NCBI RefSeq assembly: GCF_000725425.1
Contig: NZ_CP006019.1
Coordinates: 1,178,001-1,242,000, forward strand
Direction: 5' to 3'
Origin: Palaeococcus pacificus DY20341
GTDB lineage: Archaea > Methanobacteriota_B > Thermococci > Thermococcales > Thermococcaceae
Length of the DNA: 64,000 bases
A program made the position numbers and the translations under genes. Below, piece after piece: positions 5,288 to 10,321 of the stretch. The first letter of the stretch is position 1. The number at the start of each line of letters is the position of its first letter. The notes under the pieces are model-generated. The model had not been told where the DNA came from. It made no database searches and saw only the letters and a list, made by a program, of their open reading frames with translations.

Positions 5288-6574
5288 TTAAGGAGCTTTC
5301 TTTCTCCTTCCAAACCTCACTTTTGCTGTGAGGATTTTCTCCGTTGTGAAGAACTTTGCGGTTATGTAGAGAGTTGTTAGTGCAAGTATAGCTAGGTATG
5401 CAACACTCGCATACATTCTGGAGTACTGGCCCATGAGCATTGCCCTAAAAGCTAAAATTGGATGACTAAAGGGAAGTGCCATGAGGATGTATCTGAGAGC
5501 TGTTGGAAGGGTTTCAATGTCTGTGAACATTAGCACAAAGGTTGGAAAGGCCAAGGGCATTATTCCCGCGCTCACCACAGTGTTGGCACTTTGAACATCT
5601 TCTGCGAAGATTGCCAACAGCATCGCCAAACTTAGAGCAAATGCTATAGCTAAAAACATTGTTAATGCAAATAACAAGGCTCCTTTAGGGGTAATTGCAA
5701 GCCCAAGTTCTTCAAAGGAAATACCTGAGCCAGCATCTTGTGGTATGAGCGAGCCCATATAATAGCGCATACCGATCATGTAGGTTATTGACGCTATTAG
5801 TCCCATAATTGCGGTTCCAGTTATTTTTCCTGCTACGATAGTTATCCTCTTGACTGGGAGCGTTAAGAGCGTTTCGAGCGTCTTGTTCTCCTTTTCCATG
5901 GCCATCGTTCCAGCGGCCATTTGAGCAATGATGATAACCATTAGAAATATTATGAGAGGTATTGAGAAAGCCTGCGCTGCTATTATACTTGAAACTACAG
6001 AAGGCGGAACCTCCACAATCCTGTCCTTTATGATGGAGTAGCTTTGGGCATCTATTGGATGGAGAATCGCATCAGGATCCCCTTCCACCCTGTCCTTAAT
6101 TTTGAGCTTTGCCAGATATTCGTTTAAAACGCTTACAACGGCATTTATGCGTCCTTCGCTTACGCTTTCCCTCATTCCAGCACTCACACCCTTAAAAATA
6201 GCATAAATTTCCACATTTGTTTTTTCATTCATTTCAATGCGCTGAGAAAAGTCTTTCGGTATAACCACGACAACGTTATAGTCTTTTTCCTTTGCCTTTT
6301 CTATTGCGTCGTTTAAGTCTTTAGCCTCTATCTGTGTCACAGTGACGTTTGGAGCCACTTCAAGGGCTTTTATGAGATAACTCCCGTATTCGCCGGTGTC
6401 AAAGTTCACAAGAACGACTTTCGTCTCTTCTTGGGCCTGCTCTATACCTATTTGCATCAATTGACCCAACGCTGGGTAGAGTATTAAAGGTACAATGATT
6501 ATTCCAAAGAGAAGTCCTTTGTCCCTGAGCATGTGTTTAAGTTCTTTCATCACAATTATCCAAAAGTCGCTCAT
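5288..6574 (-). CDS. ABC-2 type permease (NatB-like)
   Basis: This is the membrane subunit of an ABC exporter. It has one N-terminal membrane segment (GLLFGIIIVPLILYPALGQ), an external domain of about 170 residues, then about five membrane segments from residue 205. That is the NatB/YhaP layout of ABC-2 permeases. The conserved NKTLETLLTLPVKR cytoplasmic loop, which contacts the ATPase, is present near residue 228. Its ATG is the last gene start of a six-gene minus-strand operon and overlaps the stop of the ATPase gene by one base. The substrate is unknown; NatAB relatives export sodium, drugs or peptides. Confidence 0.87.
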   Translation of the reverse strand: MSDFWIIVMKELKHMLRDKGLLFGIIIVPLILYPALGQLMQIGIEQAQEETKVVLVNFDTGEYGSYLIKALEVAPNVTVTQIEAKDLNDAIEKAKEKDYNVVVVIPKDFSQRIEMNEKTNVEIYAIFKGVSAGMRESVSEGRINAVVSVLNEYLAKLKIKDRVEGDPDAILHPIDAQSYSIIKDRIVEVPPSVVSSIIAAQAFSIPLIIFLMVIIIAQMAAGTMAMEKENKTLETLLTLPVKRITIVAGKITGTAIMGLIASITYMIGMRYYMGSLIPQDAGSGISFEELGLAITPKGALLFALTMFLAIAFALSLAMLLAIFAEDVQSANTVVSAGIMPLAFPTFVLMFTDIETLPTALRYILMALPFSHPILAFRAMLMGQYSRMYASVAYLAILALTTLYITAKFFTTEKILTAKVRFGRRKKAP

Positions 6575-7329
6575 TAATAGCCACCTCCAACCGGCTCGCT
6601 TATCTTTGCACCAACTACTGTCATAAAAACCTCTTCGAGATTTTCCACATCGTATTTTTCCTTGAGTTCTCTTGGAGCTCCAGTTTCCACAATAACCCCT
6701 TTGTTAATTAAAGCCACTCTGTCGCAGAGATACTCGACTTCAAGCATGTTGTGGCTCGAAACTAAGAATGTAACTCCCTCTCTCCTTGCGAAGTCCTTTA
6801 TGGTCTTCCTAATTGTATAGGCATTCACGATATCCAGTCCGGAAGCGGGCTCATCTAAAATTGCCAGCTTAGGTCTCACCATCAAAGCCCTCGCCAGGAG
6901 GAGCTTACGTGTCATACCCTTCGAATAAGTCGAGACTTTATCCCTAAGTCTATCCCCTAAGCCGCTTATCTCGACACCGAGCTTGAGCATCTCCTCAACG
7001 CTTTTGCCCGTTTTAGCATAAAGCTTGGCCATAAACTCGAGGTATTCCATCCCCGTGAGGTTTTTATAGGCGCCTGCCTCCTCCGGCAGGTAGCTTATAA
7101 GCTTTCTCACATCATCGGCATCTCTGACAACATCCTTTCCAAAGACTTCTGCGCTTCCTCCAGTTGGTGTTAACAATGTAGCGAGAATTTTTAAAGTAGT
7201 GCTTTTTCCAGCCCCATTGGGCCCAATGAGACCAAAAATCTCCCCTTCCTTAACTTCAAAACTAATTCCTTTTAATGCTTTAACTTTTCCATAATCTTTC
7301 TCAAGATCTTTAACTTTAACTGCTGGCAA
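6574..7329 (-). CDS. ABC transporter ATP-binding protein (NatA-like)
   Basis: This is the ATPase of the exporter whose permease follows. Walker A is GPNGAGKST (near residue 37), the signature is STYSKGMTRK (a degenerate LSGGQ, common in NatA-type proteins), Walker B is LAILDEPASGLD, and the switch histidine is in VSSHNM. The TTG at 7329 was chosen because GGAGGTGA lies six bases before it. Earlier in-frame TTG and GTG codons at 7344 and 7338 overlap that ribosome binding site. The start overlaps the end of the CPBP protease gene, so the two are translated from one message. Confidence 0.88.
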   Translation of the reverse strand: MPAVKVKDLEKDYGKVKALKGISFEVKEGEIFGLIGPNGAGKSTTLKILATLLTPTGGSAEVFGKDVVRDADDVRKLISYLPEEAGAYKNLTGMEYLEFMAKLYAKTGKSVEEMLKLGVEISGLGDRLRDKVSTYSKGMTRKLLLARALMVRPKLAILDEPASGLDIVNAYTIRKTIKDFARREGVTFLVSSHNMLEVEYLCDRVALINKGVIVETGAPRELKEKYDVENLEEVFMTVVGAKISEPVGGGY

Positions 7330-8011
7330 AATTTTCACCTCCAAGCCAAATTTGAGGGGTCAATGTTAAGTACAAACCGACAAAGAGTACAACAGCGGCA
7401 GAGATGTAAATTTCACTGATTCCGCCCGCTGTGATTAAAATGTCTCTAAAGCCATTCCAAAGAGCGTGGTAAAGTATTGAAACCGCGAGGCCCCCTTTAT
7501 AATAGAAATATGCAAAAAGAGAAGCATGAACAAAAGTTCCTAAAAAATCAACAGTGGGCTCTAGCTTCCCCGGACTTAAAGCGAGCAATATTGGGATGTG
7601 CCAAACTGCCCATATTGCATTGTGAATTAGAAGAGCCTTTGATGGCTCATACTGTTCAAGAAGCTTAGGGAACATGTATCCCCTCCACCCAATCTCCTCA
7701 CCATATGCATAAACCAGATATAGCAAAACTTGAAGAACCACAGTGCTCAAAAGGCTCAAAACTCCTCTGCTGGACAAAAACACTCTAAAAGCGCTCGAAG
7801 CCCAAAACGCAGGGGCATAAACTACTATAATGAATCCTACGACCATTAACACATAGCGTTTTCCATTATAAGTGAAGCTGGGATAAAAATCTCCCTCAAT
7901 ATGCACCGTGATGAGTGTTCCCAGAGCTACGGCAAGCATCGAGGCATGAGGATAGCCCAAGAACTGGAGAGGCCATGAGAGGGCAAAAACTATGAGGAGG
8001 AACTTTAGCAT
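7316..8011 (-). CDS. CPBP family intramembrane metalloprotease
   Basis: This is a membrane protease of the CPBP (CAAX protease and bacteriocin-processing, Abi) family. It shows the three family motifs: EEIGWRGY with the paired glutamates and arginine, HNAIWAVWHIP with the second histidine, and YHALWNGF with a third histidine and asparagine. About seven hydrophobic segments span 231 residues. The ATG at 8011 overlaps the stop of the XRE gene and has AAGGTGA five bases upstream; a longer frame to 8044 lies inside that gene. Relatives process prenylated proteins or give immunity to bacteriocins. The substrate here is unknown. Confidence 0.88.
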   Translation of the reverse strand: MLKFLLIVFALSWPLQFLGYPHASMLAVALGTLITVHIEGDFYPSFTYNGKRYVLMVVGFIIVVYAPAFWASSAFRVFLSSRGVLSLLSTVVLQVLLYLVYAYGEEIGWRGYMFPKLLEQYEPSKALLIHNAIWAVWHIPILLALSPGKLEPTVDFLGTFVHASLFAYFYYKGGLAVSILYHALWNGFRDILITAGGISEIYISAAVVLFVGLYLTLTPQIWLGGENFASS

Positions 8012-8012
8012 T

Positions 8013-8210
8013 TCATTCACCTTCGTAGATGAATATGTCTTCAATCTTAACGTTAAAAAACCTCGCCATCTTGAAGGCCAGCTCGAGTGAAGGATTGTAC
8101 TTACCTTTTTCTATAGCTATGATCGTCTGCCTTGTAACGCCCAAGGCTCTGGCTAAGTCCTCCTGCGTAAGCCCCTTCCACTCCCTAAGCTCCCTCAGAC
8201 GGTTCTTCAC
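8013..8210 (-). CDS. XRE-family HTH regulator, 65 aa
   Basis: This is a minimal Cro/CI-type repressor that is all helix-turn-helix: LTQEDLARALGVTRQTIIAIEKGKYNPS occupies about residues 14-41, followed by a short helix. Proteins of this size (YozG/Xre-like) commonly sit beside small membrane proteins and repress their own operon. The GTG at 8210 directly follows the TGA of the DUF2178 gene and has GGTGATGTGA ahead of it. Its most likely operator is the tandem palindrome at 8968-8999 at the head of the operon, which is an inference. Confidence 0.9.
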   Translation of the reverse strand: MKNRLRELREWKGLTQEDLARALGVTRQTIIAIEKGKYNPSLELAFKMARFFNVKIEDIFIYEGE

Positions 8211-8573
8211 TCACATCACCCTGTCGTAGTAATAATGGGAGATTAGGAGTATTGCCGCTCCAAGAGCTAGGGGAATTATAAGCTTCGTTGCCACCTCGAC
8301 GTTTCCCCTGCTGTACTCCCAGAGGTATTCGGCAAAGAGGAAAAAGCTCATCACCGCGTAGCCGTTCCTCGCGCTCTTCGCGCTTATGAGCTCTGTCCTC
8401 TCGTCCTCAACCCTCTCAACCTTCGAGTTGTAGTACCACGTGAGCAAATAGCTAAGCAAAAAGCCTGCTACAAAGATCCCTACAGCTAAAAGAGCCCTCC
8501 CGGACTTCGTTGAGTAAGCCAGTCCGATTATCATGCCCGTAACGAGAATTCCCAGCAAGTGTTCGTACTTCAT
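8211..8573 (-). CDS. DUF2178 family membrane protein (second copy)
   Basis: This small membrane protein of 120 aa has about four hydrophobic segments, two on each side of a charged central loop (SKVERVEDERTELISAKSARNGYA). The VEDERT motif with following charged residues is the feature I use to place it in DUF2178. No enzymatic residue is evident. It is the second of two homologous genes one base apart, and its stop abuts the XRE start. DUF2178 proteins in archaea are regularly found with XRE regulators; their role is not established. Confidence 0.8.
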   Translation of the reverse strand: MKYEHLLGILVTGMIIGLAYSTKSGRALLAVGIFVAGFLLSYLLTWYYNSKVERVEDERTELISAKSARNGYAVMSFFLFAEYLWEYSRGNVEVATKLIIPLALGAAILLISHYYYDRVM

Positions 8574-8574
8574 C

Positions 8575-8967
8575 TCACATCACCTTTGAGTAGTAGTGCC
8601 TCAGCGAGAGTTTGATGATGGAAGTTATGACCATTAGAACTATGGAGAGGTAATAGGCGCTCTTCAACCCCTGCCTGTCCTGGGAGAGGATTGCAAGGAA
8701 AACGACGGTAAAGGCCAGCACAAGGATGAGCATCTGAAGAGTCCTGCGCGAGGCCATTTCTTCTATCCTAAGTGTCCTCTCATCCTGAAGAACCTCTCCG
8801 CGCCGTTTCAGCCATTCCACATAGGCGTAGGAGAGAGCCATCGCCATGGCCAGAACACCCAAAGCGAGGGCAATACTTCCCACCCTAAGAGCCACCATCA
8901 ACATGAGGGTGGTTCCCACAGGTATCGCATATCTTGCAAGCTTCCATCTTTCCACATTTATCACCAT
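8575..8967 (-). CDS. DUF2178 family membrane protein (first copy, operon head)
   Basis: This homologue of the next gene has the same layout: two hydrophobic segments, a charged loop with LQDERTLRIEEMASRRT, and two more hydrophobic segments, ending HYYSKVM compared with HYYYDRVM in its partner. It is the first gene of the six-gene operon. The ATG at 8967 is given as start. An in-frame GTG at 8955 has a better ribosome binding site (GGTGAT, four bases away) and may be the real one, because the predicted transcript start is only about 12-15 bases before 8967. Confidence 0.8.
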   Translation of the reverse strand: MVINVERWKLARYAIPVGTTLMLMVALRVGSIALALGVLAMAMALSYAYVEWLKRRGEVLQDERTLRIEEMASRRTLQMLILVLAFTVVFLAILSQDRQGLKSAYYLSIVLMVITSIIKLSLRHYYSKVM

Positions 8968-8999
8968 GTAAAGTTTCCTTTACGTAAAGGTTCCTTTAC
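8968..8999. promoter_or_regulatory. Two tandem 16-base palindromes, probable operator
   Basis: GTAAAGTTTCCTTTAC (8968-8983) is followed without a gap by GTAAAGGTTCCTTTAC (8984-8999). The second is a palindrome with perfect 7-base arms; the first has one mismatch. Both lie between the operon's TATA box (9002-9009, minus strand) and the first start codon, so bound repressor would cover the transcript start. The small XRE regulator in the same operon is the obvious candidate ligand. Confidence 0.75.
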
Positions 9000-9055: not shown

Positions 9056-10321
9056 TTATTCCACGAGCTCGCCCATCAAATAGGTCGCCGTTGCCTTTGT
9101 GACCTTCACTTTAACGAACTCGCCCACTGGTGCCCCTGGAAGGATTATGTCTTTGTAGTTCATAGTCCTTCCTTCAATTCCGCCTTTTTGTCCTTGGCCG
9201 TGCGTTAGGACTTCCAATTCTCGTCCAACGAGCTTTTTGTTAATTTCATAGCTTATGCTCAAACGCAGGCGGTGCAAATAGCGAGAGCGCTCTTTAGCCC
9301 TCCACCCAACCACCTGATTTTTCATCTTAGCCGCTAAAGTTCCGGGCCTCGGTGAGAAGCGTGAGACGTTTATCTTGTCTGGCCTAACCCTCTCAATGAG
9401 AGCAACGGTATTTTGAAAAGCCTCCTCCGTCTCACCGGGGAAGCCGACTATAATGTCGGTGTTTAAGTTAAGCCCCGGGATTTTCCTCCTAAATGCTCCA
9501 ACTATCTCTTCAAACTCCTCAACGGTGTACGTCCTCGCCATGAGCCTCAAAATTTCATTATCTCCGCTCTGCACAGGGAGGTGGAGGAACTTGTAGATTT
9601 TTTCGTCTTTATATACATCCACTAGCTCATCGAGGAACTTTATTACATGGTTTGGGTTCATCATGCCTACCCTGACCCTAAACTCGCCCTCAATGGCAGT
9701 AATTTCATCTAAAAGCTCCGCTAAGTTGGTTCCTATATCAAAGCCGTAGCATCCGGTATCCTCTGAGCTTAGCTGGATTTCTTTATAGCCTCTAGCTAAA
9801 GCTTCCTTAACCCACTTAACCACCTTTTCCGGGGCATAGCTCTTCAAAACACCTCTCGCAAAGCGCGTTCCACAGTAGGTGCACGCGTTTAAGCAGCCTT
9901 CGCTGATAGGAACTACAAATGCAACACTGCTTTTCCAAATTCTGGGGAGCTCGAGCTTATCTACGCTCCTCTGTTCTATGGAAATCAGCTTTTCTCCCTC
10001 TTCCGCAAGTCTAATTGCATCCCCTATTCTATCTATGCTCTTAACCCCCAAAATTGCGGAAACTCTCTCATCGATAACTTTAGGGTTAATGTGGGGCAAA
10101 CAGCCTGTAACGATAACTCTCTTTCCGCCATCTAAGAGCTCTTTAATCCTTCTGCTCATGTGATGCTCCGTAGGATCTTTGACGGCGCAGGTATTAACGA
10201 TTACATAGTCCGCACTATCCAAATCACTAATTTCATAGCCCGCGTTAAGCAAGAGGGCTTCCATAATCTCCGCATCTGCCTTATTCCTCGTGCATCCGTA
10301 GGTTTCGATATGTATCCTCAT
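9056..10321 (-). CDS. tRNA t6A37 methylthiotransferase (MtaB-like radical SAM)
   Basis: This enzyme adds a methylthio group to threonylcarbamoyladenosine at tRNA position 37, the archaeal and eukaryotic e-MtaB/CDKAL1 activity. The N-terminal domain holds three cluster cysteines (ETYGCTRNKAD, VNTCAVKD, TGCLPHINP). The radical SAM CxxxCxxC is CLNACTYC near residue 141, and a TRAM-like RNA-binding domain occupies the last 60 residues (LEVLTHGQGQKGGIEGRT). At 421 aa it is full length. It is transcribed alone. The assignment to the t6A-acting branch rather than MiaB rests on the archaeal context and overall similarity. Confidence 0.92.
   Translation of the reverse strand: MRIHIETYGCTRNKADAEIMEALLLNAGYEISDLDSADYVIVNTCAVKDPTEHHMSRRIKELLDGGKRVIVTGCLPHINPKVIDERVSAILGVKSIDRIGDAIRLAEEGEKLISIEQRSVDKLELPRIWKSSVAFVVPISEGCLNACTYCGTRFARGVLKSYAPEKVVKWVKEALARGYKEIQLSSEDTGCYGFDIGTNLAELLDEITAIEGEFRVRVGMMNPNHVIKFLDELVDVYKDEKIYKFLHLPVQSGDNEILRLMARTYTVEEFEEIVGAFRRKIPGLNLNTDIIVGFPGETEEAFQNTVALIERVRPDKINVSRFSPRPGTLAAKMKNQVVGWRAKERSRYLHRLRLSISYEINKKLVGRELEVLTHGQGQKGGIEGRTMNYKDIILPGAPVGEFVKVKVTKATATYLMGELVE

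Follow-up and report, generated by a model that had tools for sequence, protein, structure and literature searches.

Tandem operator-like palindromes in front of an XRE regulator's own operon in Palaeococcus pacificus, with counterparts in other archaea and in bacteria

The operon and its promoter

We analysed a 64,000-nucleotide stretch of the Palaeococcus pacificus DY20341 genome (contig NZ_CP006019.1, positions 1,178,001 to 1,242,000), here called the window, and coordinates refer to it unless another locus is named. Its minus strand carries a six-gene operon that includes the gene of an XRE regulator, and an operator-like tandem palindrome lies at the promoter of this operon. The first two genes encode small DUF2178 membrane proteins, both with a DER motif (8575-8955, PF09946, E 5.9e-10, 39.6 bits; 8211-8573, E 1.6e-9, 38.2 bits; gathering cut-off 22.8 for both). 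The third encodes the XRE (HTH_3) regulator of 65 aa (8013-8210, PF01381, E 1.7e-21), which has the recognition helix TRQTII and is the proposed operator binder. With 76.4 bits against the Pfam HTH_3 cut-off of 23, it bears out the 65-residue XRE protein that the first-pass annotation had read in the operon, with its gene in third rather than first place. A CPBP/Rce1-like intramembrane protease (7316-8011, PF02517, E 3.7e-16), an ABC-type ATPase (6574-7344, PF00005, E 4.3e-29) and an ABC-2 type permease (5288-6574, PF12698, E 5.9e-43) complete the operon. The longest open reading frame of the protease begins with TTG at 8044, and the start at 8011 is probably the right one. Upstream, a gene on the same strand (9056-10321), which by eye resembles a tRNA methylthiotransferase gene, ends 56 bp before the palindromes.

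One or more small membrane proteins are encoded in the operon in archaea and bacteria alike. Several bacterial and other archaeal partners match DUF2178, DUF6442, DUF3796 or DUF6773 weakly and mostly below threshold, whereas the window proteins pass the DUF2178 cut-off. The Pfam description of DUF2178 records no function, and a search of open-licence papers found no mention of the family. The structure model of the first protein (pLDDT 80.6, pTM 0.53) has four predicted helices, the DER motif falling in the loop that joins helices 2 and 3; its best matches are varied helical bundles with Z up to 7.6 and single out no particular fold. The DER motif occurs in 206 of 240 proteins in an unpicked count over ten clusters; its conservation in our alignment A3 is partly circular, the rows from other loci having been chosen for DER. 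From the 79 family loci come 58 proteins of the ABC ATPase cluster and 57 of the ABC-2 permease cluster; the 69 other loci contribute 8 and 3, many stretches ending before these genes.

The element itself consists of two 16-bp palindromes with half-sites GTAAAG-N4-CTTTAC, which abut without an intervening base at 8968-8999. GTAAAGTTTCCTTTAC occupies 8968-8983 with arms of 6 bp, and GTAAAGGTTCCTTTAC occupies 8984-8999 with arms of 7 bp. Read along the minus strand, the TATA box TTATATA (9009-9003), with its 5' end 10 nt before the operator, is followed by TATA-proximal unit 1 (8999-8984; GTAAAGGAACCTTTAC on the transcribed strand), start-proximal unit 2 (8983-8968; GTAAAGGAAACTTTAC on the transcribed strand) and the Shine-Dalgarno-like GGTGA (8965-8961). 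The two units were delimited by sequence, motif scans and family comparison. The usual archaeal TATA-to-start distance places the predicted transcription start region at operator positions 17-21 (8979-8983, minus strand). Thus the coordinates and letters of the back-to-back palindromes between TATA box and operon start agree with the first-pass annotation, and so does their predicted position over the transcript start.

For the first gene, GTG at 8955 is the more likely start codon, in preference to ATG at 8967 of the open reading frame listing, because a GGTG or GGAG counterpart of the Shine-Dalgarno-like sequence sits 2 nt downstream of the operator in 61 of 79 relatives and because, as judged from their sequences, first genes of close relatives appear to begin at the residue aligned with GTG 8955.

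Allowing up to 3 mismatches, a scan of the window gave 33 matches against 24.75 expected and was not above chance. Exact GTAAAGN4CTTTAC occurs only twice in the whole 1,859,370-bp genome, as the two adjacent units (backwards control 1). For the exact 32-bp tandem pattern, about 0.0009 occurrences would be expected in a 257-Gb genome collection under uniform composition, against at least 120 stretches found.

Conservation among family relatives

The XRE query matched 89 of 94 family genomes, a few of these being weak matches to other HTH genes. For 86 family XRE loci, namely stretches from 85 relatives plus the window, we searched the preceding 2.5 kb for the operator and found the tandem pair at the operon head in 79. 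The absence of the palindromes from conserved operons, which the first-pass annotation had named as evidence against its proposal, is therefore not the pattern among these relatives. Five of the other seven loci (L093, L119, L138, L144, L155) lie on short contigs and two (L146, L161) have one unit.

Across the 79 loci, all 24 half-site bases are unchanged in 68, with one change in nine, two in one and five in one. Mean pairwise identity is 98.4% for the half-sites and 94.2% for the full 32 bp, compared with 75.6% for the XRE gene, 47.6% for its third codon positions and 32-43% for the 32-bp flanks. This contrast with third codon positions and flanks indicates that the half-sites are probably under purifying selection. 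As the first-pass annotation had anticipated for a real operator, the 4-bp spacers vary while the arms stay fixed. The TATA box begins 10 nt upstream of the operator in 65 of the 79. Gene order just past the operator varies among genomes, with one to several DUF2178-type genes, and the operator is therefore not kept merely as part of one gene start.

A few genomes depart from the common arrangement. G040 and G066 retain one unit; the G066 assembly is fragmented, so that repeat collapse is possible there. The locus with five changes, in G008, has an intact XRE gene and a degraded unit 1 (5 mismatches), and does not fit a strict requirement for two units. G005 gave no XRE match in the protein search. 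At its orthologous place (L178, 4306-4750), the ABC exporter genes are kept, the operator has decayed by four changes and the XRE gene, read by eye, is the stub MREFGDMFIYEED. This is a natural loss of most of the XRE gene with operator decay, and offers a natural experiment for derepression. Separately, one operon of G084 contains the complete tandem operator twice, at a distance of 900 bp (L405, 1501-1532 and 2401-2432).

Distribution, promoter layout and recognition helix in both domains

We scanned a species-genome collection for the exact 32-bp pattern and examined 80 loci from the at least 120 stretches that matched. They comprise 10 Thermococci, 5 other archaea (Thorarchaeota, Woesearchaeota, Nanoarchaeota and two named only 'archaeon') and 65 bacteria, nearly all Bacillales. 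A CylR2-like XRE gene lies downstream of the operator in 76 of the 80. For L202 and L253, the XRE gene is present in longer stretches of sequence (L104, L115), and L192 stops at a contig end. At L234 in Bacillus paralicheniformis, an exact tandem operator (5509-5540) has no XRE gene within the 8 kb examined. The viral collection contained no exact operator match, and we rejected a viral origin of the operator on that ground.

Sampling by genome gave the same association. In a bacterial-order sample drawn without regard to the protein, the operator (up to 2 mismatches) was found in 9 of 81 genomes, the centre included, and the backwards control gave 0. Nine of its ten places there adjoin an XRE gene; the tenth adjoins a truncated XRE start. 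At L391 of bacterium G202 (1472-1560), a second operator copy is followed by such a truncated start and is apparently a decaying duplicate. The Woesearchaeota-type DPANN phylum gave matches in 5 of 193 genomes and the Asgard phylum in 13 of 148, centres included, with controls of 0. Each of the 18 matches is followed 39-90 bp downstream by an XRE gene and has a TATA-like box immediately next to the operator; at least three had already appeared in the exact scan.

The promoter elements around the operator differ between the domains. Promoters were scanned at the 64 bacterial loci among the 76; the remaining 12 belong to Thermococci (7) and other archaea (5). For 50 of the 64, the top-scoring sigma-A promoter carries its -10 box at operator positions 7-12, which puts the start near position 19. 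TTGAC stands at -17/-18 in 44 of the 64, and this is the independent part of the result, since the fixed operator letters favour some -10 registers in the scan. Another nine promoters have the -35 box at operator positions 12-17, with both units upstream of the predicted start. A third site lies upstream in 42 of the 64 loci, in 41 of them at 28-29 bp and overlapping the -35 box. By sequence, transcription is predicted to begin near operator position 19-20 both in the archaea and in most of the bacteria examined, with different promoter elements around the start.

This layout bears on whether the element acts as RNA, unit 2 forming a leader hairpin that controls translation or decay, which we consider very improbable. 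Unit 2 does begin near the predicted transcript start, and it folds as a hairpin at 37 °C in three of four leaders, with minima of -4.6 to -7.2 kcal/mol. However, unit 1, whose half-sites are equally conserved, precedes the predicted start, and the nine bacterial promoters just described would transcribe neither unit. The GAAA loop changes among relatives (TAAA, AAAA, GAAG), and the A/U-rich 6-bp stem would be expected to melt at the growth temperature of a hyperthermophile. We rejected the leader hairpin as the main function because unit 1 falls outside the predicted transcript, as do both units in the 9 of 64 promoters.

Since the operator accompanies an XRE gene in both domains, the recognition helix of that protein is of interest. 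Among protein-selected XRE homologs, the site (up to 1 mismatch) was present in 27 of 29 with the helix [ST]RQ[TS][IV][IVG] and in 0 of 20 with other helices (TRQTIN, RRETI, SSRTII, VRQTIN; Fisher p 8e-12). These 49 loci lie outside the main Thermococcaceae locus, and matches of the bacterial-order sample were included where their locus was available. A tree of 95 XREs over 65 columns, built with every second bacterial row of the 76 and without short ones, has few starred branches and shows 4 changes of operator state, of which 1 independent pair falls on starred branches. The association between helix and operator is thus suggestive rather than proven, because independent changes on the tree are few, and with so few starred branches the tree favours no direction of transfer. 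L369 has a helix of the matching class without the site; like the operator at L234 with no XRE gene within 8 kb, it counts against the pairing. At L366 and L377 (n=2), the helix is SRQTIG and GGAAAG-type half-sites lie 46-49 bp apart upstream of the XRE gene, possibly a change of specificity. The window's own genome has a second XRE gene of the class, 9 kb outside the window (L181; G000 C1 1168733-1168924); this paralog has the helix RRETI and lacks the operator upstream.

These comparisons also limit two other accounts, in which another regulator binds the sites or the XRE protein acts as an activator; we regard them, taken together, as improbable. Linkage proves neither the identity of the binder nor the sign of its effect, and position alone is compatible with activation. 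Against another regulator, the sites accompany the XRE gene in both domains, and XRE paralogs that have a different recognition helix lack them upstream. Against an activator, the sites overlap the core promoter, a place where activators are rarely located.

Proposed autorepression and related systems

Taking these results together, we consider it very probable that the XRE protein of the operon binds the palindromes as its operator and acts as a dedicated autorepressor, blocking transcription start. The half-sites of each palindrome are one helical turn apart, which fits one XRE dimer on each GTAAAG-N4-CTTTAC. With both units filled, the DNA occupied by protein would begin immediately past the TATA box and reach about +12, and TBP, TFB and RNA polymerase could not then form or open the start complex. 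The operon, with its DER membrane proteins, regulator, CPBP protease and ABC-2 exporter, would thereby be held low. By analogy with CylR1, the DER-motif membrane protein may relieve this repression. In Bacillales, the same operator and regulator class would work at promoters with the predicted -10 box mostly inside unit 1 and the start near operator position 19. Of the self-repression proposed in the first-pass annotation, the part that stands is an operator-like element placed at the promoter, conserved with the operon and tied to the XRE class in two domains; the repression itself we infer.

The same annotation had described the repression as cooperative and switch-like, through contacts between dimers bound side by side, and this we hold as a doubtful addition to autorepression. 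It would fit the two sites kept in the 79 of 86 family loci, the two sites at the nine bacterial-sample places next to an intact XRE gene, and the third site 28-29 bp upstream in 41 of 64 bacterial loci. By simple arithmetic, however, a 16-bp repeat sets the dimers about 190 degrees apart, on opposite faces of the helix. Spacings in homologs (16, 17, 21, 27-29 and 33 bp) fit no single contact geometry, and two genomes, G040 and the fragmented G066, keep one unit. Lambda-like side-by-side contact is thus disfavoured as a general rule, and cooperativity mediated by the DNA is possible.

Autorepression of the operon appears to be the regulator's dedicated task. We found no second target in the window's genome, where only the two exact sites are present. 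Single-site counts with one mismatch in 14 genomes were mostly near the backwards control, though some exceeded it, for example with 6 against 1 in G022 and 4 against 1 in G008. We rejected a wider regulon on these counts. In one genus, g5, all three loci examined (L406, L407 and L409, near 1501) have a single exact site before an ABC-2 permease-like gene not linked to the operon, and a fourth extra exact site lies in G089. This permease-like gene is a possible second target.

A broader reading is that the XRE-operator pair covers the start itself and serves Bacteria and Archaea alike, the promoters being fitted around it, with the DER protein as membrane-bound antirepressor, in a portable circuit for envelope stress or export control that thermophilic, Asgard and DPANN archaea and Bacillales would have in common; we offer it tentatively, as rather less probable than not. 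Regulators often move between Bacteria and Archaea, and their binding sites are expected to be rebuilt as promoters differ. In the present case, the match between regulator and operator seems to have been retained in both domains with hardly a letter changed; such a circuit would work with either transcription machinery, and this can be tested directly. For a large and so far uncharacterised XRE class, the binding site would become predictable from the recognition helix, and widespread DUF2178-type membrane proteins would gain a place in a control circuit. Taken as a whole, the comparisons would suggest that a single self-repression switch, in wide use, governs membrane-protein and exporter genes. 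Our search of open-licence papers found no report of this operator, its link with a helix class, its presence in both domains or its relation to the start.

The lambda, 434 and P22 repressors and double dimers of the Fur/IdeR type are familiar examples of dimers bound to adjacent palindromes at a core promoter. The 434 and P22 repressor domains share the fold of the window XRE, which has a single domain and lacks the cooperativity domain of lambda repressor. In these systems the arrangement also differs from that in the window, where the 16-bp repeat sets the dimers on opposite faces. The XRE model (pLDDT 95.4) has its closest solved fold in DR_2454 of Deinococcus radiodurans (PDB 9k3w; Z 14.3, rmsd 0.6, 61% identity over 64 residues), which has the recognition helix SRQTIN, where the window protein has TRQTII.

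The nearest studied relative is the CylR1/CylR2 system of Enterococcus faecalis. CylR2 (PDB 1utx/2xiu) is a stand-alone XRE protein of 66 aa, like the 65-aa window protein; superposed over 65 residues, the two share 51% identity (Z 13.8-13.9, rmsd 0.8). CylR2 is described as binding and shutting a promoter, and CylR1 as its suspected membrane partner, needed for induction and thought to relay a signal (PMC3709268). CylR2 is encoded with a suspected small membrane protein, as the window XRE is with DUF2178 proteins. The two differ in the recognition helix, SRQTIN in CylR2 against TRQTII, and the QTIN homologs examined lack this operator. Moreover, CylR2 acts on a divergent toxin promoter, whereas the gene upstream in the window runs in the same direction as the operon; by Pfam, the window operon contains no lantibiotic genes, and has DUF2178, CPBP and ABC-2 genes instead. 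A small XRE repressor with a membrane partner is thus a kind of system already known from CylR1/CylR2.
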